Source of the DNA: Epilithonimonas caeni DSM 17710
GTDB lineage: Bacteria; Bacteroidota; Bacteroidia; Flavobacteriales; Weeksellaceae
Assembly: GCF_000426465.1 (NCBI RefSeq)
Contig: NZ_AUFK01000017.1
Location: 251,044 to 315,043 of the forward strand
Direction of reading: 5' to 3'
Length of the DNA: 64,000 nucleotides
The translations under genes were made by a program, and so were the position numbers. The notes beneath the pieces were generated by a model that saw only the letters and a program-made list of their open reading frames with translations, ran no database searches and had not been told where the DNA came from. Below, piece after piece: positions 4,791 to 45,467 of the stretch. Each line of letters begins with the position of its first letter. Position 1 is the stretch's first letter.

Positions 4791-4791
4791 A

Positions 4792-5469: not shown

Positions 5470-5480
5470 AATTATAATCT

Positions 5481-6290: not shown

Positions 6291-6301
6291 TTAAAAAAAT
6301 T

Positions 6302-7474: not shown

Positions 7475-7476
7475 TT

Positions 7477-9727: not shown

Positions 9728-9730
9728 TCT

Positions 9731-10621: not shown

Positions 10622-10643
10622 TATTCATTTACATCTAAAGTAT

Positions 10644-10679
10644 AGCAGACAGCTGGGAACTCCTGGCTGTCTGCTTTTT
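10644..10679 (+). terminator. Intrinsic terminator after traN
   Basis: The perfect 10-bp stem AGCAGACAGC / GCTGTCTGCT (10644-10653 and 10666-10675) is followed by TTTTA. It lies 22 bases after the traN stop and separates the mating-pair genes from the coupling-protein gene. Confidence 0.85.
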
Positions 10680-10701
10680 ATATAATTCAATTTGAGAAAC
10701 A

Positions 10702-27207: not shown

Positions 27208-28926
27208 TCAGGAACAGATTAAATCTACAAACATTTTTTTTCTCTTATATTTTAATGCATTTTTATTGTAGAATGATTTTACCCAAGCAAGGTAGTCCGT
27301 CTTCAAATGCAATGGATTATCGTTCCCTGAAACTTTTCCCGACATTTCTAAAGCTTTAGATCGCGCATAATAATGATTAAAAATTCTTACAAATTCAGTA
27401 AAATAAAGATCACTTAAATCCTTATCACCTCTAATTACCAAAGTATTCTCATCATTATTCAAAATTGAATTATCACTATAATTTGCAGAACCGGAAATGA
27501 CAATAGGATCTTCACCTAGAGGATCAATAAGTATAATTTTATTATGAATGAAATTTGTCCCTACTCCACTTGGCTTTGCATTCAATAGTAAACCTGAATG
27601 TTTTTCTGCGAGCCAATCATATAGACCATCTTTTAAATAAGTTCCATAAATTATTACATTATCATAATCGTTTGAAACTAATGTAGTATGTATAGATCTA
27701 TTATTATCTAAGATGATGTATTTGAGATTTTCTGTATCTTTAGTTATTATTTCTTTCATATGCTTACTAAAAGAAAATGGAAACATTCCACAAATAAGAC
27801 TTTTTGAATTATCCATATATTCAGCATACGTTTTAAGAATAGTTTTTTGTTCGCGGGGACTGAAAAATACGGTTATACCCTTGTTAAGATTATCATACAA
27901 TATATCTTCTTGAATTTCCAAAGTTTGCTTACCTAACACTTCGTTAATTGGATCTTGTGCTAAATATTCCCAATATTGATGAAATTTTTGAGCGACCTCT
28001 TCATCTCTGATAATGTGAGCAGCGTTACATTGACCAAAAATTCCTTTTGCTGTTATATTGGTAGACCCCGATAATATCTCAATAGGTTTACCATCTTTCA
28101 GCAGTATCATAAATTTATTATGAGCAATATAGCTTTTATTTGCTTCTTCTTTTCTTGGAATTAAAATTTGTCTTGGAATGCCTGCTTCATTTATGGCAAG
28201 ATTATTTGCTTTCTCCTCTCCTCTGGAATCATAAATTATCTTAACATCAACGCTTCTATCTTCATATGCATCTTTCAATGCTTCTAAAATGGGCAAATAT
28301 TCAAACTCGTAAAAAGCAGCTCTAATACTATATGTTTCATCTTCAGCTTTTTTGATAAAGTTCAACAAAGCATCATCCAAGCCCTTACCAAGCCACTTTA
28401 ATGCTCTCAAAGAATTCTCTTCAGATACTCCCTCTGACCAAGGTCTGATATTCCCAAACTCTCTAGCATATGCTAGGCTCCCCGCTACCCCACGGTTAAA
28501 ATACACTGAGTGTTTTGAAGTACTTTCGTCGGGAATATTAACCTTGATTTTACAGCCAGGTCTATGCTCTAAAAATTTAGGCTTTCCATATACAGGAATT
28601 ATATTGTAGATATAATCGTAGGTTGATTTTACAGTAAAATCCTCCCACATAAATGATTGGATAGGATGCTCAAAGCTGCTGAATAATTCATTTTTTACTG
28701 CGCTCCCAACAGTTTCTTCAAAATATTTAAATCCTTTTAAAAAGTACTTTTCATTTTCTATCAAATCTTCTCTTTCGATAGAAAATCCCAGTAGTCCCTC
28801 AGTTTGTTGTTGGGGCATATCAATCGAAAGTATCACTGCTGAAGTTCCTGCAACGCAGGTCACTTCAAGTCCGTTCTCTTTAGCACGTGTTCTCATTGCA
28901 TTATTGTTTTCAAGGTTAATTACCAT
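27208..28926 (-). CDS. Phospholipase D-like protein with two HKD motifs
   Basis: 572 residues. Two HKD-type motifs are visible: AHNKFMILLKDG followed by ILSGSTNITAKG (near residue 268), and FIHNKIILIDPLG followed by VISGSANYSDNS (near residue 458). Paired HKD motifs form one active site in PLD-superfamily phosphodiesterases, including nucleases. There is no signal peptide, so it acts in the cytoplasm. Flanked by accessory genes, it fits a nuclease-based defence effector, but that is inferred from context. Confidence 0.8.
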   Translation of the reverse strand: MVINLENNNAMRTRAKENGLEVTCVAGTSAVILSIDMPQQQTEGLLGFSIEREDLIENEKYFLKGFKYFEETVGSAVKNELFSSFEHPIQSFMWEDFTVKSTYDYIYNIIPVYGKPKFLEHRPGCKIKVNIPDESTSKHSVYFNRGVAGSLAYAREFGNIRPWSEGVSEENSLRALKWLGKGLDDALLNFIKKAEDETYSIRAAFYEFEYLPILEALKDAYEDRSVDVKIIYDSRGEEKANNLAINEAGIPRQILIPRKEEANKSYIAHNKFMILLKDGKPIEILSGSTNITAKGIFGQCNAAHIIRDEEVAQKFHQYWEYLAQDPINEVLGKQTLEIQEDILYDNLNKGITVFFSPREQKTILKTYAEYMDNSKSLICGMFPFSFSKHMKEIITKDTENLKYIILDNNRSIHTTLVSNDYDNVIIYGTYLKDGLYDWLAEKHSGLLLNAKPSGVGTNFIHNKIILIDPLGEDPIVISGSANYSDNSILNNDENTLVIRGDKDLSDLYFTEFVRIFNHYYARSKALEMSGKVSGNDNPLHLKTDYLAWVKSFYNKNALKYKRKKMFVDLICS

Positions 28927-29129: not shown

Positions 29130-29957
29130 TCAGGCAACTTTTATAGGCTGTGAGTTAAAATTTTGAAGATTCAGAAAAAATCCCCTGTTTTCGGTCATCC
29201 CATTTCGAAATAAATTCCAGAGGAGTGAGCCTCCTAATTGGGCTAAAGAAGAATTAATAAATAAATCCTGTTTCTCAAGTGCTTCTGCCAAACTGCAACT
29301 TGGAGTATCATCTACTGTTTCTGACTGTCTCAATAAATCACCGTATTCATCGGTTATAAAAGCAAGATTGGAAACCGTTTCATATTTTTGAGAATCAGGC
29401 TGTCTAATATCTCCGATTGTCGAGAGTAATACCTGTCCTGTACATTTACTGTTTCCAAAATCCATCCAATATTTTGCTGTATTACGATGTATATAAGTAT
29501 CATCCAAAGTTTTTAAAACCTCAGCGATTTCAAATCTTGTTTTCACATTATCGACACAGGAAATAAAAATATTGGCGGTCATATTACTCGTAATCCTGTC
29601 CGAAGCGTCTCTTTGAAATTTTCTAGTCTCCGCTTTCCAAGCCGTTCCGAAAAATCGGTTTGTCCTGTTGATTAATGCTGTCGCTTTATTAAGTCCAAGT
29701 TCGCTTTCAGCAAAAAGCTGTCTGCCGAGATTTGCTTCTTCTACCCTATCATCATCCCATAACATTACAGAAAGTCCGGGATGATCCATTTCGTTAAGCG
29801 CATAATTTATTCTGCCCAAAGCAGTAAGCATCTGCGAACCCGTTCCTCCTGCCCCTATCAGATTTATAGATATTGGGTTTGTCGGCTGAATAAAATTACT
29901 ATAGGTAAAATGAACTCTTGGCTTATTATTTACAATTGAATTATTTTGAATATTCAT
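29130..29957 (-). CDS. PRTRC system ThiF-family protein (E1-like)
   Basis: 275 residues. Rossmann ATP-binding loop INLIGAGGTGSQ (31-42), DDDRVEEANLGRQ (68-80), a Lys at about 91, and FISCVDN with Cys134 in the position of the E1 thiol or metal-adjacent Cys; later MDFGNSKCTGQVLLS. These are the hallmarks of a ThiF/E1 enzyme that adenylates the C-terminus of a ubiquitin-like protein. It is the last gene of the ssb-PRTRC operon and overlaps the PRTRC B stop by one base. Confidence 0.88.
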   Translation of the reverse strand: MNIQNNSIVNNKPRVHFTYSNFIQPTNPISINLIGAGGTGSQMLTALGRINYALNEMDHPGLSVMLWDDDRVEEANLGRQLFAESELGLNKATALINRTNRFFGTAWKAETRKFQRDASDRITSNMTANIFISCVDNVKTRFEIAEVLKTLDDTYIHRNTAKYWMDFGNSKCTGQVLLSTIGDIRQPDSQKYETVSNLAFITDEYGDLLRQSETVDDTPSCSLAEALEKQDLFINSSLAQLGGSLLWNLFRNGMTENRGFFLNLQNFNSQPIKVA

Positions 29958-30697
29958 TACAGTAGGTTTTTTAATTTAAGATTAGATTTTATAAGCACAT
30001 CATTTGGAAAATCCTTTCTGTTCTGAACAAGGTCTTTCCAAAGCGAGACACAATTTCCCTTTATAGGATTATGATTGTACATTAAGTGACTGAAATAGGA
30101 ATTGAAAAAAAAATGCTCCCAAGTAGCCGTAAATTCTTCCAAGGAAGCTGACTTTTTAATTTTAGTATCAACGTTCCCCATACAAACACTCCCGTTATCA
30201 TAGATGTTAAAAAATGGTGCGTGATATAGCGAAGTCTCTTCTGTTGGTCGCTGATTGTAATCAACAGCAAATATCTTCAAATGCAGTTTATCAGCACACC
30301 AAATTAAGGATGGTACTTTCGCTGTACCATTTGGTATTTCCAAATCCTTAGAAAAATATAATTCTCGTTCTGAAAATTCTGTGTACCAAATCACTTTTGC
30401 ATTTTCTGAATTGTCGATGAGTAAAATATTAGAAGAAATAATTCCCTGTGGTTTAAGAAATTCTTTTTCTCTGCAATTTTGAATTTTAAGTCTTTTTGCT
30501 AAATATTTAGCTTCGTTGGTTGTAAGTGGATGTGCATTAATGGGACTGCCATCTTCATCCATATCAAAATATTCAACGTACATATCAGAAAGCTTATCAT
30601 CACTTTCGTAGAAAACTAATGCTGATTTTGGATGATAAAGATTTTCAAAATCTTCTGTTACATCTTTTGCTTCAATATTATTATTTTTTCGTTTCAT
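29957..30697 (-). CDS. PRTRC system protein B (E2-like)
   Basis: 246 residues. The core is KVPSLIWCADKLHLKIFAV, then LYHAPFFNIYDNGSVCMGN. His159-Ala-Pro and Cys172 in GSVCMGN match the predicted catalytic region of the prokaryotic E2 family that covers PRTRC B. In a ubiquitin-like relay this Cys would accept the modifier from ThiF. The start is ATG 30697; the gap to the upstream gene is 19 bases. Confidence 0.85.
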   Translation of the reverse strand: MKRKNNNIEAKDVTEDFENLYHPKSALVFYESDDKLSDMYVEYFDMDEDGSPINAHPLTTNEAKYLAKRLKIQNCREKEFLKPQGIISSNILLIDNSENAKVIWYTEFSERELYFSKDLEIPNGTAKVPSLIWCADKLHLKIFAVDYNQRPTEETSLYHAPFFNIYDNGSVCMGNVDTKIKKSASLEEFTATWEHFFFNSYFSHLMYNHNPIKGNCVSLWKDLVQNRKDFPNDVLIKSNLKLKNLL

Positions 30698-30716
30698 AAC
30701 TAATTCGAGTTAAGAT

Positions 30717-31910
30717 TTATAGACTTGAAAAGTCGCCAAGTATTCCTGCAAGCTGATTAAGAATTTCAAAAACTTCACTTTCAAAATCCAGACTGTTATC
30801 TGAAACTTCTTTCCCATCAAAAACTTTGAAAACAATAGGTTCTTGAATTTCAGCATATTCATTGAATTCATTATTTACACTATCGATAATACTTTGATAT
30901 GCCCATCCTCTATCATCAGCAAAAAATGAAATGTATTTATCCATTGAAATAACGGCTTCATCATTTTCATCGTAATCGAATTCATCATCATTAGAGAAGT
31001 CCTTATTATTATTAAAATGTATGTTTCTATAGATGCGTTCTTCGGGAAATTTGCTGTATAAGGAGAAAGCTTTATTAGCAAGATTCAAACATTCAACATC
31101 AAAACTATCTTTTGCTTTAAATGAAGTTACACGCTGTTGAAAAAATGACAAATTATTGATAGATGCAATCTTCTGCTCCATAATATCACCAATTAATTCA
31201 GCCTGTTGTAATTGCTTTTTATATTCACAATTTTCATCCAATTCTTCATCTTGGTCAATCCAGTCGCTTAGCATTTCATATAACCAAAATAAGTATGAAG
31301 CTTCCTGTCTGTAATAAGGAATATCAATAATCCGATACAGATAAGTGCATACAGAAAGTAGCATTTGAGCTGTTTTTCTGTATTTCTTATGATGAAGCAT
31401 ATTATGAAGAGGAACGACAGGAATATAGTAAAGAGTCATTCCTGTACTGATTCTTTCTTCGCTCACAAAATATAGGCAGTTACCTTTGTGCTCCAATTTA
31501 ATATCCTGCCAATTTTTGATACTCGTTTTCATTTGCTTTCGGCAATGATTCAGAGATAGTGAGATGTTATATGGAAATTCAAAATCTTTATGATCAGATT
31601 GAGAAAGATTATAATGCTCTGACATTTGGGAAAGGGATTTATAAAAATCCCTCTCCAATTTTATTGTTTTTGATTTTGACAAATTTGATGTTGTGCTACA
31701 TTCTTTAAGCTTTGGCAGAAAAGCCGTTTTCAGAAAACCATTGGTATTTGTGCCAATGGGACAGACTTTCTCTGGTCTTTCTGTACTTCCGAACTGTCTT
31801 TTTCCTGCTTCATCCATTTCATAAAATCGCCTACCTGCTGATGAACCTGTTTTTGTTTTTTTTCTTCCGGAATTACTATTTTTCCTTTTATAATATTTTG
31901 TTGCATTCAT
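30717..31910 (-). CDS. PRTRC-locus protein in the F position
   Basis: 397 residues. A basic, low-complexity N-terminus (KYYKRKNSNSGRKKTKTGSSAGRR) is followed by a helical body and a very acidic stretch (NNNKDFSNDDEFDYDENDE). I do not recognise a catalytic motif. It lies between PRTRC C and B in the operon, where PRTRC F is found in other loci; the F assignment is by position only. Confidence 0.55.
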   Translation of the reverse strand: MNATKYYKRKNSNSGRKKTKTGSSAGRRFYEMDEAGKRQFGSTERPEKVCPIGTNTNGFLKTAFLPKLKECSTTSNLSKSKTIKLERDFYKSLSQMSEHYNLSQSDHKDFEFPYNISLSLNHCRKQMKTSIKNWQDIKLEHKGNCLYFVSEERISTGMTLYYIPVVPLHNMLHHKKYRKTAQMLLSVCTYLYRIIDIPYYRQEASYLFWLYEMLSDWIDQDEELDENCEYKKQLQQAELIGDIMEQKIASINNLSFFQQRVTSFKAKDSFDVECLNLANKAFSLYSKFPEERIYRNIHFNNNKDFSNDDEFDYDENDEAVISMDKYISFFADDRGWAYQSIIDSVNNEFNEYAEIQEPIVFKVFDGKEVSDNSLDFESEVFEILNQLAGILGDFSSL

Positions 31911-31937
31911 CTTAATTTTGATTTAATTCATAAACTG

Positions 31938-32156
31938 TTATCCTTTAGTTCCCATTACACTTTCAAATTGATATTGAATAGTGTCATCTTTAATCAGAGG
32001 AGCGGAAACCTTTGCAGTGGTAAGAATTGGATAATTATTAGCATAAAAATTCATCACTGCTTCTACACTCCATTTTGGTTCGGGGTCTGTCAGGCGAATA
32101 TCCTGTCCATTATCTTTCAGAATGAAAACCCGTTCTAATTGTGTTGCGAGTAACAT
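31938..32156 (-). CDS. PRTRC system protein C (ubiquitin-like)
   Basis: 72 residues (LERVFILKDNGQDIRLTDPEPKWSVEAVMNFYANNYPILTTAKV). The sequence and size are those of PRTRC C, a predicted beta-grasp prokaryotic ubiquitin-like family. The protein ends GTKG, so the mature C-terminus is already a glycine, as needed for adenylation by the ThiF protein encoded in the same operon. Confidence 0.88.
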   Translation of the reverse strand: MLLATQLERVFILKDNGQDIRLTDPEPKWSVEAVMNFYANNYPILTTAKVSAPLIKDDTIQYQFESVMGTKG

Positions 32157-32165
32157 AATCTATAT

Positions 32166-32714
32166 TTAAATGTTGGAAATTTCTTGTGGTTCTTGTGGCT
32201 CGGAAAAAAGACTTGGAGCAAGATGGACTTCATATTGTTCCTGCTTTTTCCTGATGTTATCTGCCTTATCGGGATAATCTGAAATTTTAGGTAGAGCAGA
32301 CCACGCATCTTTATATTTGCCCTCCTTTTCAAATTGCACTGCCTTTTGTAAGGATTCAGTAAATTTTTTATCCTTTGTTTCCTTTTCTTTTTTCTCCTTA
32401 TCACTTTTCTCCTTTTCCATTGCAGATTTCTTCTTGGCTTCTTCCATCTGTTTCATAAAGCTTTCCATATTTACCATTAAACCCGAAGCAGTCTGTAATG
32501 GTGTGCCTACCGTTTCAAAGAATCCGTTATCAAGCTCTTCTGCTGTTCCCTTTAAATTAACAGGTGGAATCAATTTTCTTGCTTCGTCTCCACACTGCTC
32601 ATTATTGAGCAATATGGATAGAACAAAGCCATTTTCTTCTGTTGGTCGAAGTATCAACTGCAAGTCACCTTTTAAATTAAGTTTGGCGAGTTGTCTAAAA
32701 AAATTGGTCTGCAT
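32166..32714 (-). CDS. PRTRC system protein E
   Basis: The start is placed at ATG 32714 (MQTNFFRQLAKLNLKGDLQLIL, 182 residues); a TTG at 32723 would add three residues. The N-terminal domain continues with EENGFVLSILLNNEQCGDEARKLIPP, the recognisable PRTRC E signature, followed by a long Lys/Glu coiled coil and a Pro/Glu tail. Function unknown. It heads the PRTRC part of the operon. Confidence 0.82.
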   Translation of the reverse strand: MQTNFFRQLAKLNLKGDLQLILRPTEENGFVLSILLNNEQCGDEARKLIPPVNLKGTAEELDNGFFETVGTPLQTASGLMVNMESFMKQMEEAKKKSAMEKEKSDKEKKEKETKDKKFTESLQKAVQFEKEGKYKDAWSALPKISDYPDKADNIRKKQEQYEVHLAPSLFSEPQEPQEISNI

Positions 32715-32723
32715 AGCTTTCAA

Positions 32724-33176: not shown

Positions 33177-33578
33177 TTAAAATGGTAAATCATCATCCTT
33201 ATCTCCGACTAAAGCACTTGCTGTTTGTGGTTTGGCTTCGATGGTTGAATTAGTATTAACATCCGCCTTACCTCCTCCTCCGTGAACTTTAATAAATGAT
33301 GTGAGAAAATTTAGACCCGAACGAATCTCTCCATCTTTTCCTATCCAAGCACTTGCACTTGGTTTTCCTGTCAGCTCTACCAAAGTACCTTTGGTAAGAA
33401 TTTTAGCTACATTAGAACTAATCCAGTATGAACAGTTATAAAATGTGGTCTGTTCTACTCTATCTCCTTGTTTATTTTTAAAGCTATCATTTATAGCTAC
33501 TGAAAAATTAACAACTTGTCTGTCATTTGCTAATGCGTTAACTTCCGCATTCTTTGTAATTCTGCCTACGATGTTCAT
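33177..33578 (-). CDS. ssb: Single-stranded DNA-binding protein
   Basis: 133 residues: an OB fold beginning MNIVGRITKNAEVNALANDRQVVNFSVAIND, with YNCSYWISSNVAKILTKGTLVELTGKPSA, a short linker, and the acidic tip DDDLPF that recruits SSB partners. It is an element-borne SSB, as in conjugative plasmid leading regions. It is first in the minus-strand ssb-PRTRC operon; copy 3 of the hairpin-promoter repeat lies about 275 bases upstream. Confidence 0.92.
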   Translation of the reverse strand: MNIVGRITKNAEVNALANDRQVVNFSVAINDSFKNKQGDRVEQTTFYNCSYWISSNVAKILTKGTLVELTGKPSASAWIGKDGEIRSGLNFLTSFIKVHGGGGKADVNTNSTIEAKPQTASALVGDKDDDLPF

Positions 33579-33852
33579 AATAATTGAATTTAAATTGTTT
33601 AAAATTATTTTCGTTTTCTAAAAATTTCTTGAGTGAATTGATTTGGTATCGAGGACACTCGGTTTTCTCTATTGTTTTTCCTAATTGGAAATGATTATTT
33701 ATATATTTTTTTGATATTTCCGAAGATGTCAAAGAGCATAAGTTGAATTGATTTGTATAACTGAGGTTCCGGTTTTTCTTTGCTTATGACCATAGAAAAA
33801 GAGCAGGCGCATAAAACCCAAGGAAAAAGAGTCACTAATTATATTTATTTTC

Positions 33853-33998
33853 AGGGCTTGAAATATTTTTGTCCGAAGGATTTAGGAGTTTCTGACAAAT
33901 TATCGGAACTGGTGTAGAAAATTTTTTAGATACCCAAAAAGATTTTTTTGTGAGAAAGCCTCTTTTCTACATTTGCAATTGTAAAAACAAAAACACAG
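33853..33998 (+). repeat. Hairpin-promoter repeat, copy 3 (upstream of ssb)
   Basis: Third module: GAAATATTTTTGTCCGAAGGA, GGAGTTTCTGA, then a hairpin (33891-33930) in which TCTGACAAATTATC pairs with GAAAATTTTTTAGA at 12 of 14 positions. Then come ACCCAAAAAGA, TTTTTTTG (33943-33950), a 17-base gap, and TACATTTG (33968-33975). Rightward transcription would enter the iteron region; leftward lies ssb. Confidence 0.8.
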
Positions 33999-34246
33999 TT
34001 ATTAAATCAACTTATCAATTTACACTGGTGAATAATATCAAACTAATTGCAATACATATTGTTTACAATCGGTTTATTTGTAAAGATGTAAAGACATAAT
34101 TTTTGTACTAAAAGATTATATTTTTTCTTTAAAAGCAAAAGCTTAAATTCCTTTTAGAGAAAAAAGAACTTTTATATATTTTTAGAAATACTTTTACTGT
34201 ACTCCACTATTATCCTGCAGCAGCTGTTTGAGAGGATTTTAAGAAT
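33999..34246. other. AT-rich stretch beside the iterons
   Basis: About 250 bases with no gene, dominated by A/T tracts (TTATATTTTTTCTTTAAAAG and similar). An AT-rich unwinding region next to iterons is expected at a replication origin, but no repeats of the usual 13-mer kind stand out. Confidence 0.4.
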
Positions 34247-34519
34247 GAGTGTGTTTCCGAAAGATAGATGATCGCTTTTCCGAAAAAGAGATCAGTGCTT
34301 TTCCGAACATCAATCAAAATACGAATGAGTGCGTTTCCGAATTTTTCAATCCAACATTCAGTATTTATCCACAATTATCAAAATTTCGACAATGTAAAGA
34401 GTTCGTTTCCGAATCTAATAGTATAAAAGAGATAATTTTCGTCCGACTAGTTGGGTTTAGGAGCGCTTTTCCGAAATATCCAGAGTGCTTTTCCGAAATA
34501 AAATGAGCGCCTTTCCGAA
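34247..34519 (+). other. Iteron array, probable replication origin
   Basis: Eight copies of a 15-mer, consensus GAGTGCTTTTCCGAA, start at 34247, 34270, 34293, 34327, 34399, 34461, 34483 and 34505. All are on the + strand. CCGAA is invariant and so is the TT before it. Spacings of 22-23 bases (two helical turns) group them as 3 and 3, with two singles, and a DnaA box sits between the fourth and fifth. This is the layout of an iteron-controlled theta origin. The initiator candidate is the 364-residue protein at 37623-38717. Confidence 0.8.
34365..34373 (+). promoter_or_regulatory. DnaA box inside the iteron array
   Basis: TTATCCACA, a perfect match to the bacterial DnaA-box consensus, between iterons 4 and 5. 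Confidence 0.75.
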
Positions 34520-34760
34520 TTGAAGAATTTGCTTAAACCGATTATACTTTTAAATGACATAGTCATAGGCGACAAAATAAACTCAATGGTCACATATGTT
34601 CAATTCTTAATCATAGATCGCCTTGAATAAAACTTTTGAATATTCAATTATGACTTTTTACAATCATAAAAGTTCACTCCGCCATTTATAACAATTAGTT
34701 TAATAGCAGTAATACGGTTAAATATGAATTTTGTAAAATAATTTAACAAAAGAATTACTG

Positions 34761-35552
34761 ATGAAAAACAACTTTTTTATGCTGCTTTGTTTCTGTGTTA
34801 ATTCATTTCTGTTTTCTCAGGTAGGAATCAACACCTCATCTCCTGAGACTACTTTTGAAGTTGTAGGAAAAGCAGAAGACATCAATCATTATGATGGAAT
34901 TCTCCCCCCACGCATTACGGGAGATCAGTTGCAGAAAAAAACATACAATTATTCAAAGAAAGGTGCTGTTATATTTGTCACCACTGCACCATCAAACTTA
35001 TCAGGTCAGGTAGCTGATATTACAGAGCCAGGGCTATATTACTTTAGCGGATATTCGTGGAAATCTATATCCAATCAAAAGGAACCAATAGAATATAGAA
35101 TTATTCTGTCATTTGATAACAGCAATGATGATGTTCTGACAGAATCATCAAAGTGGTCTGAGCCTCTTAATCTTTCGTCTGACAAAAATGTTTACTTAAC
35201 ATCCTCAAAACATTATTCGATAGGAACAAAAAAATATGGAGGCTTTAAAGGCTCGGTAACTTTAAGGAAATTAGAAGGGATAGTGAATATAAAATTTGAA
35301 ATTAGCAGAGCATCTGATGCACCTAATGTTTTAGATGATGTTTTATTTGATATTTCGGGAATATGCAACGAAATCGGATACTTTCCTAAAGATATAGTTT
35401 TTATGCAAAATGAAAATTCAACTTATGTAATTCCGGTACTGCTTCAAAATAATACCATATATATTATTGCAGGAAACTTAAATATGATAAACTCAAACGC
35501 CACTGGTGAAGTGCAAGGCTACTCAAATTGGATCAAACCTCACTCCAAATAG
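34761..35552 (+). CDS. Secreted surface protein, paralogue of next gene
   Basis: 263 residues with a signal peptide (MLLCFCVNSFLFSQ), then VGINTSSPETTFEVVGKAEDINHYDGILPPRITGDQL and GLYYFSGYSWKSI. The first ~100 residues are closely similar to the next gene. The C-terminal part is a distinct beta-rich domain. GINT-type openings are common in flavobacterial outer-surface proteins. It lies on the opposite strand to the rep and PRTRC genes, between the origin and the rep operon. Confidence 0.65.
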   Translation: MKNNFFMLLCFCVNSFLFSQVGINTSSPETTFEVVGKAEDINHYDGILPPRITGDQLQKKTYNYSKKGAVIFVTTAPSNLSGQVADITEPGLYYFSGYSWKSISNQKEPIEYRIILSFDNSNDDVLTESSKWSEPLNLSSDKNVYLTSSKHYSIGTKKYGGFKGSVTLRKLEGIVNIKFEISRASDAPNVLDDVLFDISGICNEIGYFPKDIVFMQNENSTYVIPVLLQNNTIYIIAGNLNMINSNATGEVQGYSNWIKPHSK

Positions 35553-35606
35553 CTATACCACAAAAGTAGATTCTAAAAACATAGTGAACTATAATCAAAT
35601 AACAAA

Positions 35607-36701
35607 ATGAAAAACAACTTTCTAAAACTATTTTTTTTATTGATAAGTGCCAACTTTTTCTCACAAGTCGGTATCAATACTCAAACGCCTAAAGCTACCT
35701 TAGAAGTAGTAGGCAAACCAGATGATGCCAATCATTTCGATGGGATCATTCTACCAAGAATTAGTGGAGATCAATTGGCAACAAAAACTTACACTACAGC
35801 ACAGAAGGGAGCAATAGTTTTCGTTCTATCACCTGCCACCAATTTATCAGGGCAATCTGTTCATCTTGAAAAGTCAGGTCTATATTATTTCGACGGTCAA
35901 AAATGGGTTCCATTACTTCAAAGTGATCCATTGGAAGTTGTCTCTCAAACAGGTAATACTTCCACGCTGGAACTTATTGTAAAAAATAATCTGAAGCTTG
36001 ATTTTGATCAAAAAGAAAATTATATCATCGGTAAATCTAGAAGCACTATCGCCGGTGAATACAACTCAATTTTTGCAACGGACTCAAACATAACTTCCGG
36101 AAAAGGGAATTCGGCCAGTGCCTATGCAATGTCTCAAGGAGAAATTACTGGAAAACTAAATTATGGAGCGGGGGTATCAGCACTAAATGGTATTATTAAT
36201 GGAACAATTTCCGGAAACAGGAATATTGGAATCGGTGCAGGAGCAATGTCATATATCACATCAGGCAATGATAATATTTCTATAGGATATCTGTCGGGTA
36301 CAGGCAATAGAACTGGATCTAATAATGTTTTTATTGGTGTCGGTGCAGGAAGCCCCGCATCTGGAAATAGAAGTATTAGTAATAAGCTGGCAATTCATTC
36401 AACACCAGTAACCACCAGTTCAACAAATTTTTGGGATAGCATTACAAACAATTATACAGACTATAAGTTTGCGCTAATCTCTGGAGATTTTTCTGAAAGA
36501 TGGCTCAATATCAATGGAAAACTGAGTGTTACACCTTCACAAATGCCCGATGCAGACGGAGATCCAGCTTACACCAAAAAAGTTGTAGCCAAAGCGGATG
36601 GCAGCTTTGGTTTTGCAACTGAAGTAATTCCTATTCCCCCATCAAATGGAACCTTTATATTAAAAAGTGTGAACGGAGTGCCAGGATGGGTTACTCAATA
36701 A
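35607..36701 (+). CDS. Secreted surface protein with YadA-head-like repeats
   Basis: 364 residues: signal peptide (LLISANFFSQ), VGINTQTPKATLEVVGKPDDANHFDGIILPRISGDQLATKTY shared with the upstream paralogue, then NIGIGAGAM, NISIGYLSG and NVFIGVGAG repeats. These look like left-handed beta-roll head repeats of trimeric adhesins or phage-tail-like fibres. The C-terminus repeats PDADGDPAYTKKVVAKADGS. Probably displayed on the cell surface; role unknown. Ends before a bidirectional terminator. Confidence 0.65.
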   Translation: MKNNFLKLFFLLISANFFSQVGINTQTPKATLEVVGKPDDANHFDGIILPRISGDQLATKTYTTAQKGAIVFVLSPATNLSGQSVHLEKSGLYYFDGQKWVPLLQSDPLEVVSQTGNTSTLELIVKNNLKLDFDQKENYIIGKSRSTIAGEYNSIFATDSNITSGKGNSASAYAMSQGEITGKLNYGAGVSALNGIINGTISGNRNIGIGAGAMSYITSGNDNISIGYLSGTGNRTGSNNVFIGVGAGSPASGNRSISNKLAIHSTPVTTSSTNFWDSITNNYTDYKFALISGDFSERWLNINGKLSVTPSQMPDADGDPAYTKKVVAKADGSFGFATEVIPIPPSNGTFILKSVNGVPGWVTQ

Positions 36702-36763: not shown

Positions 36764-37600
36764 TCACCTTATCAGCCACTGATTCACATCTTTATAATGT
36801 TGGTACATCCAGGAAAAATCTTCAACATTTTTATAGCTGTTGCGGATCTGCTCTACGACAGTTTTTCCCGTTTTATCATTATCAAGAAATAGAGATATTT
36901 TTTTGTATTTCTTTAGTATTTTATCTCCCGCTAAGAGCATCGATGTTGAATTAAAGACTAAATAATCTGCATCTGAAGAAAATTTATCATCTTCTATCGT
37001 TTTATATGACAAATAATCAAAAAAGCCCTCAAATACAACAATTTCATTATTTTGCTGATTTCCCTTCTTTATTAACGTCACATCTTTTGGTCCGAGGCAG
37101 ATTTTAGAATATTTATTACGGACTTCAATACCTCCTGAATTATTAAAAAAAGCAATCGCAAAATAATATTTATCTTCTATTTTGTAATGGATCTCTTTGA
37201 TAAGACTTTTACAATTCAAAACTCCCCTTGACTTAAGATACTCTAGCAACGCAGGATGCTCGACATCGATTGTTTTTAAAACATTATAAGTAAAGCCATC
37301 ATTTGTTTCAACCACATTATCTATTGTAGGCGAAAAATCAAGCTTATTTAAATATTCAAGCGCTGTTGAAACATTACATTTATTAATAGCTTGAACTATT
37401 GATATAACATCATATATTTTACCTGTTCCAAAATCAAAAGCTGTATTCTTAATGAAATCTACAGACAGGCTGGCTGTTTTCTCTTGTCTATCTAATGCAA
37501 AATAAAATGCTGTTCTTTTGTTTTCTTTTACAGGGAATAGACCATAGGATTCCATAACCGTCCTGATACTGACGTTTTGTTTTATTTGCTCACAATTCAT
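36764..37600 (-). CDS. Toprim-domain DNA primase
   Basis: 278 residues. The N-terminus (IRTVMESYGLFPVKENKRTAFYFALDRQEKTASLSVDF, AFDFGTGKIYDVISIVQ) has the layout of a CHC2 primase zinc domain, though the zinc Cys/His set is not complete. A Toprim domain follows: VVFEGFFDYLSY with the catalytic Glu, and LFLDNDKTGKTVVEQI with the Asp pair. It is the last gene of the rep operon and probably primes element replication or conversion of transferred single strand. Confidence 0.8.
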   Translation of the reverse strand: MNCEQIKQNVSIRTVMESYGLFPVKENKRTAFYFALDRQEKTASLSVDFIKNTAFDFGTGKIYDVISIVQAINKCNVSTALEYLNKLDFSPTIDNVVETNDGFTYNVLKTIDVEHPALLEYLKSRGVLNCKSLIKEIHYKIEDKYYFAIAFFNNSGGIEVRNKYSKICLGPKDVTLIKKGNQQNNEIVVFEGFFDYLSYKTIEDDKFSSDADYLVFNSTSMLLAGDKILKKYKKISLFLDNDKTGKTVVEQIRNSYKNVEDFSWMYQHYKDVNQWLIR

Positions 37601-37622: not shown

Positions 37623-38717
37623 TTAAAAAATGACGGGATATCCATCCGGAAGAAATTTTCCCATTCTTGTGTCCCGGTAAAGTTCTATCATAAGTTGTTG
37701 TATCTCCTTTAAAAATACCTTACCACTAAAATCAGAGGATCGTAGTTTTAATTTTCTATTTTTTTTGATAAAGTAATTGTAAGATTTCTCTATCAGCTCT
37801 CTTGTCTGTAATATATTTCGATAATGATATGCGAACTGCAGCATTTCCTGCTCCTGCAATCTGTACCTTTTTTTAAAATAATTAATTCGATAGGTGATGA
37901 ACAAGTGTTCGCTATCTATATTCAAATCTGCTTCCTGAATTTTTTCAGTGGAATATGGATGAATTGCAATGTTTTCTCCTTTGCATTTGAAATTAAATGA
38001 CACTGTACTGTATTTATCGAGACTGCCCTTAACCTGTTTTAAAAATTTAAAACAAAAATCATTTGCTGTTCGATAATTTAAGTCAAACTTCGAATTAAAT
38101 GTTGACAGTTTCAATACAGTGCCAGTTGATGGAAGTTTAGCCAGCCAAATTGCAAATATGATATGTTTATTATTTTTAATATTATACACCAACTGATAAA
38201 GCATATAATTATATTCCGGTATTACAATTAATTTCTTCAGCCAATAACTGCTGATAAGAAAAGATGTGTAGCCTCTTTCATCGTAGGTTGGTGTTGATAT
38301 AAGTCCTGCAAAAGTTTTGATTTCCTTACCTTTTCTATTCTGGGACTTATACCATCCCATCTTAAATTTTGCTAAAAACTCATAGGCATTAATTACCTGC
38401 TTTGTTGAGCCACTGGGAGAAATTTTGCTATTCTTAATTTTAAGCAGGGCGAAAGTATTATTTTCAGTCTCAAAATCATCATCGAACAAAGAGAGTTGCT
38501 TCGGACGATCTTCAGGTCTGAATTGTTCATTACTTATAATAGAGATTATATTAAATATAACCCTTAGCGCATTGATGGGAATGTTGGCGGCTTGACTATT
38601 TTCATCAAAGATAAAATCATCAACAAAATGGTTGCCTATTCTTATACTCTCAGGAATTCTTTCATTTTTAAATTCCTTGCGAATGATTTTCTGACTGCTA
38701 TCTTGTAACGACATCAT
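37623..38717 (-). CDS. Replication-initiator-like protein
   Basis: 364 residues. Segments such as NAYEFLAKFKMGWYKSQNRKGKEIKTFAGLISTPTYDERGYTSFLISSYWLKKLIVI and FAIWLAKLPSTGTVLKLSTFNSKFDL suggest winged-helix initiator-type modules. It sits between a DUF3853 gene and a primase gene and has an iteron array 3 kb away. Initiator function is inferred from context; sequence similarity to Rep_3-type proteins is weak by eye. Its start overlaps DUF3853 by 20 bases. Confidence 0.6.
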   Translation of the reverse strand: MMSLQDSSQKIIRKEFKNERIPESIRIGNHFVDDFIFDENSQAANIPINALRVIFNIISIISNEQFRPEDRPKQLSLFDDDFETENNTFALLKIKNSKISPSGSTKQVINAYEFLAKFKMGWYKSQNRKGKEIKTFAGLISTPTYDERGYTSFLISSYWLKKLIVIPEYNYMLYQLVYNIKNNKHIIFAIWLAKLPSTGTVLKLSTFNSKFDLNYRTANDFCFKFLKQVKGSLDKYSTVSFNFKCKGENIAIHPYSTEKIQEADLNIDSEHLFITYRINYFKKRYRLQEQEMLQFAYHYRNILQTRELIEKSYNYFIKKNRKLKLRSSDFSGKVFLKEIQQLMIELYRDTRMGKFLPDGYPVIF

Positions 38718-39063
38718 CTTTTTCTTTATTGCAGTTTATTAGTTCATATTCATTGTTAATTAGAACTAAAGCTCTCTCAACGTCCAGGACAATTTTTCGC
38801 CCCTCCTGAGTGATCGCATCTTTAATTTTACCGCTCTTTTTTAATCTCATAGCAGATGAAATACTGCAATTAAATAACTTGGCTATACCTTTAAGACCAT
38901 ACACATACTTTTCATCAATTATTTTATTTTGCTGCAAGGATCTCTTTGTACGATTTGTTATATAAATATTTTCATATTTAAATAAACTTACTAATTCCTC
39001 CCCGGTCATTTGCCAAATAAGCTTTTGCTTTAGTTTATTAATTTCGTTAGACATCGATCGCAT
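38698..39063 (-). CDS. DUF3853-family DNA-binding protein
   Basis: 121 residues. LIWQMTGEELVSLF, YVYGLKGIAKLFNCSISSAMRLKKSGKIKDAITQEGRKIVLDVERAL is the DUF3853 signature: a helix-turn-helix of excisionase/MerR type found before replication genes on Bacteroidota elements. An ATG at 39054 is an alternative start three codons inside. Confidence 0.82.
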   Translation of the reverse strand: MRSMSNEINKLKQKLIWQMTGEELVSLFKYENIYITNRTKRSLQQNKIIDEKYVYGLKGIAKLFNCSISSAMRLKKSGKIKDAITQEGRKIVLDVERALVLINNEYELINCNKEKDDVVTR

Positions 39064-39068
39064 TTTTA

Positions 39069-39419
39069 TTAGTTATGTTGTCTTCTGCGATTTTTCTTAA
39101 AATCCGCTTCACATTCCTCGGTAATTTCCTGCAAGGTCTTTTTCTTGCCTTTAGAAATCCAGTTCAGTATTTCTTCTTCAAAAAAATATAGTTTCTTACC
39201 GTTTTTGTAGCATGGGATTTTTCTTTCTCTAACAAGAGTGTAAATGGTTGGTTTCGCTTTACCGATTAAGGATGCTACTTCATCTATTCCGATTGGAATT
39301 TTTTTGAGAGGTATAACAACATCTTCTTTTGATACCAGATGCTTTATCTCAGCAAGTTCACGAATTAAGAAGGCGACTGCTTGTGGTAAATTTTCAAATG
39401 AAATATTTTGCAAATCCAT
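39069..39419 (-). CDS. Excisionase-like helix-turn-helix protein (HTH_17)
   Basis: 116 residues. IGIDEVASLIGKAKPTIYTLVRERKIPCYKNGKKLYFFEEEILNWI is a typical HTH_17 excisionase-type winged helix. It is the first gene of the rep operon and lies just downstream of stacked GTGTTTT palindromes, so it may autoregulate. Confidence 0.8.
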   Translation of the reverse strand: MDLQNISFENLPQAVAFLIRELAEIKHLVSKEDVVIPLKKIPIGIDEVASLIGKAKPTIYTLVRERKIPCYKNGKKLYFFEEEILNWISKGKKKTLQEITEECEADFKKNRRRQHN

Positions 39420-39623: not shown

Positions 39624-40880
39624 TTAATTTTCAAATGGTAAAAATGCAGATCTCATACGCTCTTGTTCAGATCTGGGTATTCCAATCTCGCTAGCAATAC
39701 TTTCCCATCCTCTTACAACCGAAATGACTTTTTCAATGATTTCATCCATTTCATTTTCGTTCAGTCTAAATTGAGCGCCCACTTCCTTAGCAAGTTCAAG
39801 ATCCAAAGCATTATTATCTGTATCAATATTTAGAGCAAGTCCTTCTTTATCCACAGACGGATTAATGTCATAGGCTGGTGAAAGTATCCATCCTTTTGGG
39901 GTTAAAATAAATCCGTGATTTCTAAGGTGATCATCTGTGTTTGATATACAAATACTAAACACGATTCTTCTCCATAATTCCTTCAAATTATTGTTAACAT
40001 CAATACCGTAGTTCGTAATAAAATCAACGATATCAAGGTAACTTGCAGTTGAATCTCTTAATTTTTCTTCATTGTTTCCTGTCATAGTCATAGCTGACGA
40101 AAAATGAATTCTTCCGGAGTTTGTTCTATCAAATCTTTTGGTGAAAAATGTATGATAGCTGTTACTTAATTTTTGAATCTTTGTTTCTGACATATTAATT
40201 CCGGCATCAGTAGCTAATCGGTATGCCAGATATTCCCACGCTGCCTTATCAATTGTATCATTTTTTGAAGGAAATTTAGCAATCCATAAATTTTTTTCCT
40301 GATCCATAACATTAGCTTTCGGTCTTGCACCCCCTAATGAAGATCCTGGAACTACAAGCAGTGCTAATAACCTTTTCATTTTAGGCTCATCTTCATTTTC
40401 AAAACTTTTCACGGCTGCCTCCAACTCTCTTAATGATGACCAGGGTGGTGTAGGGTTATTCTCATCATCATCTAAAAAATTTCCATCTATTGAAGTCTTA
40501 AATCGCAGAGCACCCATCCTTGTTTGGTCATACACTCCTAATAAATAATCCAGATCATAAAGTTTCTTTTCTTTCTCTCCAGTTTCTTTGGCTACCTGAA
40601 TAGATTTTCTTTTCATTAGTGTTCTTCCCCAAGTATCAGGCATACTATCCATAAAAACACCAAAATTTTCTTTATTGGTTGGATATTGTGGACCTCCAAA
40701 CAACTGAAGATCAGGATCTATTAAATTTTGACCCGCACTTTTAATCCACTCTTTATCATATTCAAAACTAAAGGACTTTTTTCCTTTACCCTGATGAGCT
40801 GACAAAATCCCCATTAAATGAGGACCTTGAAGGTCAATCCAATCTGCATATACAAATATGTCAACTTTAGTAGATTTCAT
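39624..40880 (-). CDS. hipA: HipA-family Ser/Thr kinase toxin
   Basis: 418 residues. The N-terminal subdomain has FVYADWIDLQGPHLMGILS and LLGVYDQTRMGALRF. The kinase part has the Gly-rich loop VPGSSLGGARPKANV, LWIAKFPSKNDTIDKAAWEYLA, TKRFDR, the catalytic segment ISNTDDHLRNHGFIL (near residue 309) and SPAYDINPS for metal binding. All key residues appear intact. HipA toxins phosphorylate aminoacyl-tRNA synthetases or related targets, causing growth arrest. It follows hipB by 9 bases. Confidence 0.93.
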   Translation of the reverse strand: MKSTKVDIFVYADWIDLQGPHLMGILSAHQGKGKKSFSFEYDKEWIKSAGQNLIDPDLQLFGGPQYPTNKENFGVFMDSMPDTWGRTLMKRKSIQVAKETGEKEKKLYDLDYLLGVYDQTRMGALRFKTSIDGNFLDDDENNPTPPWSSLRELEAAVKSFENEDEPKMKRLLALLVVPGSSLGGARPKANVMDQEKNLWIAKFPSKNDTIDKAAWEYLAYRLATDAGINMSETKIQKLSNSYHTFFTKRFDRTNSGRIHFSSAMTMTGNNEEKLRDSTASYLDIVDFITNYGIDVNNNLKELWRRIVFSICISNTDDHLRNHGFILTPKGWILSPAYDINPSVDKEGLALNIDTDNNALDLELAKEVGAQFRLNENEMDEIIEKVISVVRGWESIASEIGIPRSEQERMRSAFLPFEN

Positions 40881-40889
40881 TTAATTATA

Positions 40890-41177
40890 TTATTTCAGTA
40901 ATTCTAAATCTTGCAATTTTCTTCCAAATTCATCATCAGATCCAAGCTTTAAAATATCATCGCTAAGACCCAATACTCTCAAAACATTAAAATATGATCC
41001 CATTGCCACACTTGGATCACCTTTTTCAATAAGATGTAGTGTTGAACGTACAATTCCGGCTCTCTCTGAAACCTGCTCTGTAGTTAATTTTCTTCTTTTT
41101 CGAGCAAGTTTAATATTCTCTCCCATTTGTTCCAGCAGAGCCAAATACTTGGGTAAAATTATTTGTTTCTTTTTCAT
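40890..41177 (-). CDS. hipB: HipB-family antitoxin (XRE HTH)
   Basis: The start is placed at ATG 41177 (MKKKQIILPKYLALLEQM, 95 residues); a TTG at 41198 lies inside the operator palindrome and is unlikely to be used. The HTH is GENIKLARKRRKLTTEQVSERAGIVRSTLHLIEKGDPSVAMGSYFNVLRVLGL. HipB-type proteins bind HipA and repress the operon. The 53-bp palindrome abutting the start codon is the expected operator. Confidence 0.9.
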   Translation of the reverse strand: MKKKQIILPKYLALLEQMGENIKLARKRRKLTTEQVSERAGIVRSTLHLIEKGDPSVAMGSYFNVLRVLGLSDDILKLGSDDEFGRKLQDLELLK

Positions 41178-41230
41178 AATGTCCGTTATTTCATACAAAA
41201 TTACACATTTTGTATGAAATAACGGACATT
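41178..41230 (-). promoter_or_regulatory. 53-bp perfect palindrome, hipBA operator and promoter
   Basis: Two perfect 24-bp arms (41178-41201 beginning AATGTCCGTTATTTC, and 41207-41230 ending GAAATAACGGACATT) surround a 5-base centre TACAC. On the minus strand it contains a TAATTTTG (41203-41196) that fits the -7 element, and it ends 0 bases from the hipB ATG. Binding would cover both promoter and ribosome-binding region. Confidence 0.85.
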
Positions 41231-43533: not shown

Positions 43534-44823
43534 TTAGTTTGCTTGTATAATTTCTTGGTTTTCTTCTAAAATATTTTCATCCAGCTTAATAGCTCCAGCT
43601 GCTCTATTTTTCAGTTCATCAACTACTTTAGCATAAACTTGAGTTGTTGTAACTTTACTGTGTCCAAGCATTTTACTAACTGTATAAATGTCTGTTCCTA
43701 AAGAAAGCTGCAATGTTGCAAAAGTATGTCTGAAGCAATGAAAAGTTATATGCTTTGTTATTCCAGCTGATTTGACCCATTTTTCGAGAGGTCTCGAAAT
43801 CCAAGAGCTATCTTGTAAATTTTCAAATACTAGCTGTTCGGGAAGTCTCGGAGTTCCGCATAAATGAATTGCTTGTTCAGAAATCGGTGTATACTCGACT
43901 CCTTTTGTTTTCTTTTGTCTAAATTGAATTTTGATTCTATTTGACTGAACATCAATTTCTTTCCACTTAAGCCTTTTAATATCACAATGTCTTAACCCTG
44001 TCAGTGCAGAAAATAAAGATGCTCTTTTCAATTCATCATTTTCACAAGGAGTATTTACTAAAAGATTAAGTTCCTCCAAAGAGAGATGTTCACGGAAAGA
44101 TTCTTGCTCTCCAATACCTTTAATCTTTGCTGATAAGTCAATTATAAAATAACCATCAATAAAAGCTTGGGAAACTATTGCCTTAAAAATAGAAAAGTAC
44201 GTTGCAGCACTATTATTTGAAAGAATTCCTTTCTTTTTTCCGCGATAGGGCGCCGATAAAAGATAAAGCTTAAAATCATCAGCAAAACTCAAATCAATTT
44301 TTGAAAATCTTAAATCATCTCCGGAAAACTCTATAATAAATTCAATTAAACACCTCCAGTTAGTTCTAATTGAATCAGAACTATTATTTGAGCCGTGTCT
44401 TTTCTTTAGCAACCTATTACAGTAATCTATAAATTTTTCTTTTTGTTTTTCTTGCAATTCGGCCTTAATAGCATCGCTATCACTATACAAGTCGACATTA
44501 TCATATTCTTTTTGGCGTAGTTTACGAATTCCATCAGCATATAACATTGTCTCCCTGTCACGCTCACTCTTACAAACTATAATTCCATTATCATCACGCT
44601 TTGGTTTAAAGGCTTTTGTCCCGTCCTTTAGGTTAGTTCTGCTTGTTCTTTTTTTATCCCATTCAACCGTATAAACAATTCTATTGAGATACTCCCTAGA
44701 ACGTTGCGGTTTATTTTTTCCAGCAATAAATACAGGATAACTCTCCAAATAGACATACCATTCATTTCTATCCTCAGCTTTACGCAATCTAACTGTAACT
44801 TGAGTTTTTGAAAGTTGTTTCAT
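43534..44823 (-). CDS. Tyrosine recombinase, ICE integrase
   Basis: 429 residues: an N-terminal arm-binding domain (QVTVRLRKAEDRNEWYVYLESYP), SAM-like core-binding domain, and catalytic domain with Arg in TGLRHCDIKRL (about 274), Lys in FRQKKTKG, HCFRHTFATLQ (about 362), GHSKVTTT (about 385) and nucleophile Tyr in VYAKVV (about 396). All six catalytic positions are present. It sits near the right end of the element and marks integration and excision by tyrosine recombination. Confidence 0.93.
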   Translation of the reverse strand: MKQLSKTQVTVRLRKAEDRNEWYVYLESYPVFIAGKNKPQRSREYLNRIVYTVEWDKKRTSRTNLKDGTKAFKPKRDDNGIIVCKSERDRETMLYADGIRKLRQKEYDNVDLYSDSDAIKAELQEKQKEKFIDYCNRLLKKRHGSNNSSDSIRTNWRCLIEFIIEFSGDDLRFSKIDLSFADDFKLYLLSAPYRGKKKGILSNNSAATYFSIFKAIVSQAFIDGYFIIDLSAKIKGIGEQESFREHLSLEELNLLVNTPCENDELKRASLFSALTGLRHCDIKRLKWKEIDVQSNRIKIQFRQKKTKGVEYTPISEQAIHLCGTPRLPEQLVFENLQDSSWISRPLEKWVKSAGITKHITFHCFRHTFATLQLSLGTDIYTVSKMLGHSKVTTTQVYAKVVDELKNRAAGAIKLDENILEENQEIIQAN

Positions 44824-44827
44824 AAGC

Positions 44828-45382
44828 TTAATCTATAGTACCATTATATAATTTGTCAATCTCGCTTTTTGGAGCATAAACATAATTACCAATTTGACGG
44901 GTGGGAATTGAGTACTTTCTGATATGCTTGTATACACTCGTATCGTGTAACTGAAATTTTTTGGAAATCTCACCAATAGTATAGCAATTCTCTTCAGAAA
45001 GATCATACAAGTTAGGATTAGAATTTTTCTTTTCAATCTTTTCTTTAGATGCCGGAGGAAACATTTCTTGCAAAACTTCACGATTTACTTTTATTAAACG
45101 AGTTCCTTCATTAATAGAAGGTATTACATTTTGTTTGATAAGTCTATAAAGTGTTCTTTTTGCAATGTCAAAGAGTAAAACAGCTTCAGGGACTGTCAAG
45201 AGAATTTTATCTAAAGGAATCTGATCAATCAGTTCTTGTCTTTTTAATTCTAATTTTTCTTGACGCTTTCTTTTCTGGTAAGCATTTTTTATACACTGCT
45301 CACGACAATAAAATGAAGTTACTGTCTTAGGTATAAATTCCTGCGAACAATGCAGACATTCTCTTTTAATCCTTTTAATCAT
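44828..45382 (-). CDS. Excisionase-like protein with zinc finger and two helix-turn-helix motifs
   Basis: The start is placed at ATG 45382 (MIKRIKRECLHCSQEFIP); the frame is open further upstream but runs across repeated DNA. 184 residues: a CLHC...FYCREQC zinc-ribbon-like motif (9-30), then an HTH near KILLTVPEAVLLFDIAKRTLYRLIKQNVIPSI, and a second near CYTIGEISKKFQLHDTSVYKHIRKYSI. Its stop lies 4 bases before the integrase gene. A recombination directionality factor or integrase regulator is likely. Confidence 0.65.
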   Translation of the reverse strand: MIKRIKRECLHCSQEFIPKTVTSFYCREQCIKNAYQKRKRQEKLELKRQELIDQIPLDKILLTVPEAVLLFDIAKRTLYRLIKQNVIPSINEGTRLIKVNREVLQEMFPPASKEKIEKKNSNPNLYDLSEENCYTIGEISKKFQLHDTSVYKHIRKYSIPTRQIGNYVYAPKSEIDKLYNGTID

Positions 45383-45415
45383 ACATATAGAAAAACTAAA
45401 GGTAAGAAAAAAAAT

Positions 45416-45467
45416 CTTAAGTGCCACATCTTCTCTGCTTAAGTGCCGGTACAAATATGGTACAAAT
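45416..45467. repeat. Paired direct repeats at the element end
   Basis: CTTAAGTGCC occurs twice (45416-45425, 45438-45447; starts 22 bases apart), followed by GGTACAAAT twice (45448-45456, 45459-45467; starts 11 bases apart). They lie between the excisionase-like gene and the chromosomal dnaK terminator, where integrase arm-type or excisionase sites are expected. Confidence 0.55.

Follow-up and report, generated by a model that had tools for sequence, protein, structure and literature searches.

A probable iteron-type replication origin and its candidate initiator in an integrative and conjugative element of Epilithonimonas caeni

Introduction

Among described integrating elements, the rep-oriV module of SGI1 is the closest in plan to the locus analysed here. 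It comprises an HTH_17 gene, rep, iterons, a DnaA box and AT-rich repeats, it replicates the island after excision, and the excised island no longer replicates when either rep or the origin is deleted (PMC7433901, PMC7826253). The SGI1 Rep has a RepA_C domain and is placed in the Rep_3 family (PMC7826253); its four iterons are 16-17 bp long and GC-rich, and an IncC helper is required. SGI1 and BcenGI2 are named in a review as integrating elements with Rep_3-type initiators (PMC5704250). A putative initiator, likewise of the Rep_3 type, is also encoded by Mesorhizobium integrative and conjugative elements (ICEs), the symbiosis ICEs and one further element excepted; these elements are proteobacterial, and the word iteron is absent from the main text of that paper (PMC8627217). 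In SXT/R391, extrachromosomal copying is tied to the TraI relaxase and oriT, a hipAB-like stabilising pair lies near the excision genes, as in the element described below, and the main text again does not contain the word iteron (PMC4489591).

In Bacteroidota, the Bacteroides element CTn214 gives rise to an amplified 17-kb circle by a mechanism that is unsettled (PMC10865816). Papers on Chryseobacterium ICEs mention replication or partition genes, or a circular form, with no origin in the passages concerned (PMC8694125, PMC12561888), and one of them describes ICEs as being multiplied passively with the chromosome (PMC8694125). Among the matches listed from the open-licence PMC literature, none described an iteron origin for an ICE of Bacteroidota. 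Here we describe a stretch of 64,000 nucleotides of the E. caeni DSM 17710 genome, called the window below, in which a sequence-only reading had placed a plasmid-style theta origin inside an integrative element.

Results

An integrative and conjugative element at the 3' end of dnaK

The genome measures 4.11 Mb, and the window comes from its contig C6; Table 1 collects the features discussed here. The integrative element that had been proposed turned out to have defined ends at the 3' end of dnaK: the core ACTTCTTC is present at both ends, and the element extends over 107.5 kb from the left core at C6:189131 to the right core. Comparison with a relative (G106), which is without the element and has an uninterrupted dnaK 3' flank, places the insertion at about -62097 to 45551 in window coordinates. 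To the left of the window and still inside the element (L076), a MobA/VirD2-type relaxase and a ParA-like gene are encoded, and the conjugation genes lie within the window, several of their matches falling below NCBI's own cut-offs. Judged by its integrase, defined attachment sites, relaxase, coupling protein and mating-pore genes, the element is an ICE.

The coding sequence of the TraG/VirB4-type ATPase is divided between two ORFs that overlap in different frames (413-1552 and 1524-3473, plus strand). In the second ORF, the ATPase contains a DnaJ J-domain (PF00226, E 2.7e-21), and the element itself sits at the 3' end of dnaK. A PLD-like protein (27208-28926, minus strand) with a weak match to the NgoFVII restriction enzyme may be a cargo defence gene.

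To the left of the element, the assembly runs from the chromosome through ACTTCTTC, 87 bp of the left end and ten N to the right end, which is joined via ACTTCTTC to the left end. This right-to-left junction of the attP type is that of an excised circle or a tandem copy. The complete chromosome of Chryseobacterium sp. ZHDP1 carries the same core at the dnaK end beside the same genes (L045:3118) and the same left end, and, if the chromosome numbering agrees between tools, its element is by arithmetic also 107.5 kb. The chromosome-to-left-end junction was the only one found in ZHDP1.

Table 1. Positions of the features of the element and of the putative origin in the window
Feature	Position	Strand	Remarks
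Conjugation genes: TraG-type ATPase (two ORFs), TraJ, TraK, TraM, TraN, coupling protein	413-12684	+	TraJ and coupling protein below NCBI cut-offs
PRTRC genes: E (32166-32723), B/E2-like (29957-30697), ThiF (29130-29957)	29130-32723	-	
Single-strand binding protein (ssb)	33177-33578	-	
AT-rich stretch with TAAAAG (CTTTTA on the plus strand at 34151, 34169, 34191)	34090-34200 (approximate)	.	Probable DNA unwinding element
Iterons 1-4 (34247-34261, 34270-34284, 34293-34307, 34327-34341)	34247-34341	+	Distal half-array seen from rep
DnaA box TTATCCACA	34365-34373	+	Central gap between the half-arrays (iterons 4/5); position conserved in relatives
Iterons 5-8 (34399-34413, 34461-34475, 34483-34497, 34505-34519)	34399-34519	+	Rep-proximal half-array
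Two genes (263 and 364 aa)	34761-36701	+	No Pfam match; separate rep-primase from the array
Toprim/zinc-ribbon primase-like gene	36764-37600	-	Replication module; present in 31/31 named relatives
Rep (364 aa)	37623-38717	-	Probable iteron-binding replication initiator
DUF3853 small gene	38698-39063	-	Directly upstream of rep
HTH_17 excisionase-like gene	39069-39419	-	Upstream of rep
HipA toxin (39624-40880) and small HTH-like gene (40890-41198)	39624-41198	-	HipB named by position only
Tyrosine integrase	43534-44823	-	Next to dnaK
HTH protein	44828-45454	-	Between integrase and attachment site
Right attachment core ACTTCTTC	45593-45600	+	In dnaK 3' end; left core outside the window

Eight iterons around a DnaA box

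The window holds eight 15-mers on the same strand, each matching GAGTGCTTTTCCGAA at 13-15 of 15 positions, with start-to-start spacings of 23, 23, 34, 72, 62, 22 and 22 bp. The description in the sequence-only reading, of eight 15-mers mostly 22-23 bp apart around a DnaA box, was therefore accurate: four of the seven spacings are 22-23 bp, and four iterons lie on each side of the box. A search of both strands of the whole 4.11-Mb genome for a related pattern, at up to two mismatches, gave 270 matches, from which about 0.02 are expected per 273 bp, and chance is thus excluded for eight copies in 34247-34519. As a word, TTATCCACA is not remarkable, and the window contains it twice more without mismatch, at 39847 and on the opposite strand at 23716; its placement inside the array is the notable part, and relatives keep the box there far above chance. 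The AT-rich stretch that had been noted beside the array was confirmed as well, with an A+T content of 75% in the flank (34020-34246), 71% in the intergenic region (33579-34760) and 66% in the window, and the TAAAAG repeats in this flank are conserved among relatives. The initiator-like, toprim primase and ssb genes said to be nearby are all present. The window therefore contains the sequence features of an iteron-type theta replicon, namely same-strand direct repeats of about 15-22 bp, a DnaA box and an AT-rich stretch with short repeats. Between rep and the array there are 3.1 kb that contain the primase and two further genes, and the iterons vary more among themselves than in many relatives.

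A candidate initiator with a RepE-like domain

The 364-aa Rep had no match in Pfam or NCBIfam up to E = 1, the RepA_C domain of the SGI1-type Rep being absent in Pfam up to E 1, and no match to the Rep_3 Pfam families above the curated threshold; one of seven Rep relatives matched Rep3_C (E = 0.0042). A sequence search of the PDB with Rep returned no meaningful solved relative. One plasmid record annotates a Rep relative as a RepB-family initiator.

The AlphaFold model of Rep is confident only from about residue 176 onward. Within it, the segment 173-264 superposes on the second winged helix of mini-F RepE (2z9o_A) with Z 10.2 and an rmsd of 2.3 over 86 residues at 17% identity, the structures listed below the RepE entries having Z of at most 7.0. 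Foldseek aligned the model to RepE with E 2.7e-5, at low whole-model TM-scores (0.23/0.37). The first half, modelled separately, gave a weak model (mean pLDDT 61.6), the two best matches of which were RepE and pPS10 RepA at a non-significant E of 0.1. On the strength of the model, the second winged-helix domain of Rep is RepE-like. Like mini-F RepE and other initiators of the Rep_3 type, the window system combines this predicted fold with an iteron array, a DnaA box and an AT-rich element, whereas its Rep, unlike them, is without a sequence family match. Rep is constrained, with pN of 0.13-0.23 and pS of 0.75-0.92, where synonymous sites are near saturation and no non-synonymous/synonymous ratio is computable.

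Rep and its array in the family and on plasmids

Matches to Rep at E <= 0.001 were found in 95 of the 296 sampled genomes of the same family (the window's own included) and in 15 of its 33 genera, a few of the matches being weak or partial. Across a phylum-wide sample of 395 genomes, a profile search had matches in 4, again counting the window's own, and no Rep relative was found in the viral contigs and phages searched. The idea that the excision genes of CTnDOT or NBU1 (Bacteroidales) might be recognisable relatives was set aside in view of the phylum-wide count. Using tblastn, Rep relatives were located on nine plasmid records, all below 60% identity, from Myroides, Flavobacterium, Riemerella, Capnocytophaga and Chryseobacterium. 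Repeat clusters lie 3' of rep in all six plasmids examined, and in five of the six a gene of the parA family is found a few genes upstream (three of the six plasmids were examined in part); plasmid L012 has no ParA annotated upstream of rep in the part examined. Among 60 loci, 17 are on contigs larger than 1 Mb, which indicates that many Rep loci are chromosomal.

A set of 31 named loci was obtained with the single window protein as query, and these are not all independent (L045 and L046 have one Rep between them). An iteron array is present in all 31, starting in 27 no more than a few bases from the stop codon of rep; it lies 2.3-3.1 kb downstream in L045, L046, L047 and L053, as in the window, and in these five cases the primase directly follows rep and one or two other genes precede the array. 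The loci otherwise have their gene order in common, with a DUF3853 or HTH_17-like gene ahead of rep, then the array and the primase, which is present in all 31; ssb and PRTRC_E then follow in 21 within the flank covered. An integrase like that of the window occurs within 10 kb in 6/31, three of these at 25-26% identity, and the ICE status of the other relatives is judged from contig size and gene order rather than from mapped ends. For L146 and L166, the Rep frames of which have an internal stop, only the open part was used.

Several loci stand out. In the window, the PRTRC E, B and ThiF genes (ubiquitin-like enzymes) come after ssb, and PRTRC genes accompany the origin in 21 of the 31 named relatives. 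The same genome encodes a second Rep (L078, G000:C5:63311-64399), which is 65% identical and has its own nine-copy array with another iteron type; in 60 kb around it, there was no match to the ssb, PRTRC proteins or integrase of the window. In the clade with AAAA-type iterons, the array stands 1.1-4.9 kb from rep in the window, L047, L053, L024 and L177, in the same orientation to rep, and L019 and L049, which have AAAA-type iterons too, still have it adjoining rep. L182 (G066:C2; Rep 44% identical) has a 12-copy GGGTGCAAT array 3.6-3.9 kb downstream in a different layout, and the Rep of L167 (G612:C15; 35%) comes from an 8-kb contig where 11 copies of GTTTTTGCA form an array spaced at 20-23 bp, apart from one interval of 43 bp.

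A conserved layout with a quantised central gap

Read from rep, the array consists of three iterons 22-23 bp apart, 61 bp, one iteron, the gap, one iteron, 34 bp and three iterons (3-1-gap-1-3). Nine Reps of 52-58% identity have a different iteron, of the TTGCGGTAT type, and three of about 30% have yet another, CTGAATGTT, with the layout unchanged in both groups; L154 and L169, in the 50-54% range, keep the commoner iteron type. To our knowledge, these iteron sequences and the 3-1-gap-1-3 layout are peculiar to this system.

In a self-similarity scan, in which the outer spacings were fixed within 1-3 bp and the gap alone was free (50-130), so that the other spacings rest on k-mer and motif analysis, 92 of 103 regions scored higher for this layout than all 80 shuffles did. 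Shuffles of up to 700 bp (n = 80) peaked at 62, stretches without an evident array reached 66 over many windows, and the accepted 92 regions all scored at least 69. The window scored 87, against up to 105 among relatives. The Riemerella plasmid pRCAD0416RA-1 and a 68.8-kb plasmid of C. shandongense, with Rep relatives of 59% and 30% identity, share the layout of the window with scores of 105 and 92. Both plasmids are free; no gene called integrase is found in their incomplete gene tables (50.0 of 68.8 kb for C. shandongense), and each has a "recombinase family protein". Plasmids L010, L011, L012 and L014 have repeats in other layouts.

The 11 regions that did not exceed the shuffles are L015, L017, L018, L020, L066, L155, L156, L157, L158, L161 and plasmid L012. 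For L015, L017, L018 and L020 the flank was too short, the arrays lying further downstream in the same or an equivalent locus. L066 retains five iterons, and in L158 an array of 12 copies of another sequence stands 3.6-3.9 kb downstream. No array was found in the part of the surroundings searched for L155-L157, which have divergent Reps (48%), or for L161. The strongest k-mer cluster of L073 proved to be an unrelated minisatellite, the iterons forming the second cluster.

The length of the gap is quantised. It falls within 1.5 bp of 72, 82.5, 93, 103.5 or 114 (72+10.5k) in 83 of 87 elements, against a chance expectation of about a third, and within 2.5 bp in all 87; the phase and the period of this rule were read from the data, and gap classes were set by rounding. 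This count omits L045, a copy of the window, and the poorly fitting L167 and plasmids L010, L011 and L014 (all above 62). When the last four are restored, with offsets of 1.0, -4.5, 2.5 and 2.5 bp, 84 of 91 are within 1.5 bp. A motif-based count of largely the same elements gave R = 0.88 at 10.5 bp (n=70, one of which, L034, is ambiguous and was entered as 129 instead of 82). The gap class changes at least 16 times on the FastTree Rep tree, a tree with long branches and 30 weak inner branches out of 84, so the gap is not one inherited value. We read the steps of about 10.5 bp, one turn of DNA, as suggesting that the two half-arrays must face the same side of the helix. According to a review, cooperativity is abolished when two iterons are separated by half a turn (PMC4980987).

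DnaA box, TAAAAG repeats and iteron type

An exact DnaA box lies in the gap of 37 of the 87 elements, against a shuffle mean of 0.095 and maximum of 1, and a box within one mismatch in 50, against 2.3 in shuffles; on the opposite strand, up to one mismatch, there is one in 87. Thus 50 of the 87 are without an exact box in the gap and 37 without one even at one mismatch. Beyond the array, TAAAAG occurs 252 times, compared with a shuffle mean of 42. Iteron type (AATT, AAAA, GTATT or TGAATG) changes five times on the Rep tree, compared with 19.4 for shuffled labels, a value as low being reached in 0 of 200. Iteron type thus appears to follow the Rep tree; near-copies add to this clustering, which is support and not proof.

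Discussion

We consider it very probable, from the sequence comparisons and the structure model, that the segment is the oriV of an iteron/Rep theta replicon that would replicate the excised element, as in SGI1. The earlier view of a plasmid-style origin gained support from comparison, given the RepE-like second winged helix, the relatives on circular plasmids, the arrays in 31 of 31 named loci, the iteron type that tracks the Rep tree and the defined ends of the ICE. The locus has in common with SGI1 an HTH_17 gene, rep, an iteron oriV 3' of rep, a DnaA box, AT-rich repeats and an integrating element around them; it differs from SGI1 in that Rep has no RepA_C match, the eight iterons are richer in AT and stand in two half-arrays, the element has conjugation genes of its own, and the host belongs to another phylum. 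The element can probably copy itself after leaving the chromosome, and an ICE that replicates after excision and an integrated conjugative plasmid are here two names for nearly the same thing.

In the mechanism that we propose, the tyrosine integrase would excise the ICE at the dnaK 3' end to give a circle. Rep, probably made together with the HTH and DUF3853 genes just upstream, would bind the eight iterons as two cooperating half-arrays on one helix face, either side of the DnaA box, and Rep and host DnaA would open the adjacent TAAAAG-rich element, where the host helicase together with the primase and SSB of the element would start synthesis. The excised element would thereby be kept, its number could rise before transfer or re-integration, and HipAB may punish its loss, as reported for R391. 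While the element is integrated, the origin would be silent; an active plasmid origin in the chromosome should be harmful, so some switch must exist. Binding of Rep to the iterons, unwinding, replication and repression of the integrated origin are steps that we infer. In a relative (L050), RteC adjoins the module, which offers a lead for the switch.

An excised ICE might instead be copied, if at all, from oriT by its relaxase in the rolling-circle manner of SXT/R391 and ICEBs1, the iterons then serving only for control or incompatibility. The element does encode a MobA/VirD2-type relaxase, and such replication has been published for SXT/R391 (PMC4489591), but a dedicated initiator under strong constraint, the DnaA box, the TAAAAG repeats and the occurrence of the same rep-array unit on plasmids would be left unexplained, and we judge this account improbable; the relaxase and iteron modes could also coexist. 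Slightly less credible still is the idea that the origin is a relic of an integrated plasmid and no longer works. The distance of the window array from rep and its less uniform iterons would suit a relic, yet rep is intact, the DnaA box, the layout and all eight iterons have been retained, and the array is displaced also in L047, L053, L177 (about 4.9 kb from rep) and L024 (about 1.1 kb), a recurrence that argues for an old arrangement and not for fresh decay.

Direct repeats can also serve as centromeres. With a ParA-like gene in the element and parA near rep on five of the six plasmids examined, the array might be a parS-like partition site, or else a set of operators for an ICE regulator, and no origin at all. 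We find this the least believable of these accounts, since the iteron type tracks the Rep tree, Rep has a RepE-like initiator domain, and the DnaA box and AT-rich repeats are features of origins; a partition site could overlap the origin.

Taking the segment as an iteron origin, a broader picture can be drawn, which in our estimation is evenly balanced between right and wrong. The Weeksellaceae would harbour a lineage of ICEs, with rep in about one-third of the sampled genomes of the family, that are conjugative theta plasmids living integrated. They would have a fixed bipartite, helix-phased layout in which Rep bridges the DnaA box, and iterons and Rep would have diverged together into incompatibility groups, so that two such elements could coexist per cell. 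The two Rep copies of this genome, whose iterons differ, point that way. Systems of this kind are known; the initiator family, the layout and the spread in this phylum look new.

If true, a widespread and conserved initiator-origin unit would mean that many such ICEs are self-copying once excised. It would have consequences for how stably these elements persist, how they transfer and how they exclude one another, and would make the distinction between ICE and plasmid less sharp. The rule that the central gap follows helical turns makes a direct and testable prediction on how iteron origins are built. For genes listed as "hypothetical" on flavobacterial plasmids, a likely function and a scheme for typing are now at hand, and the family may be a source of origins for flavobacterial vectors.
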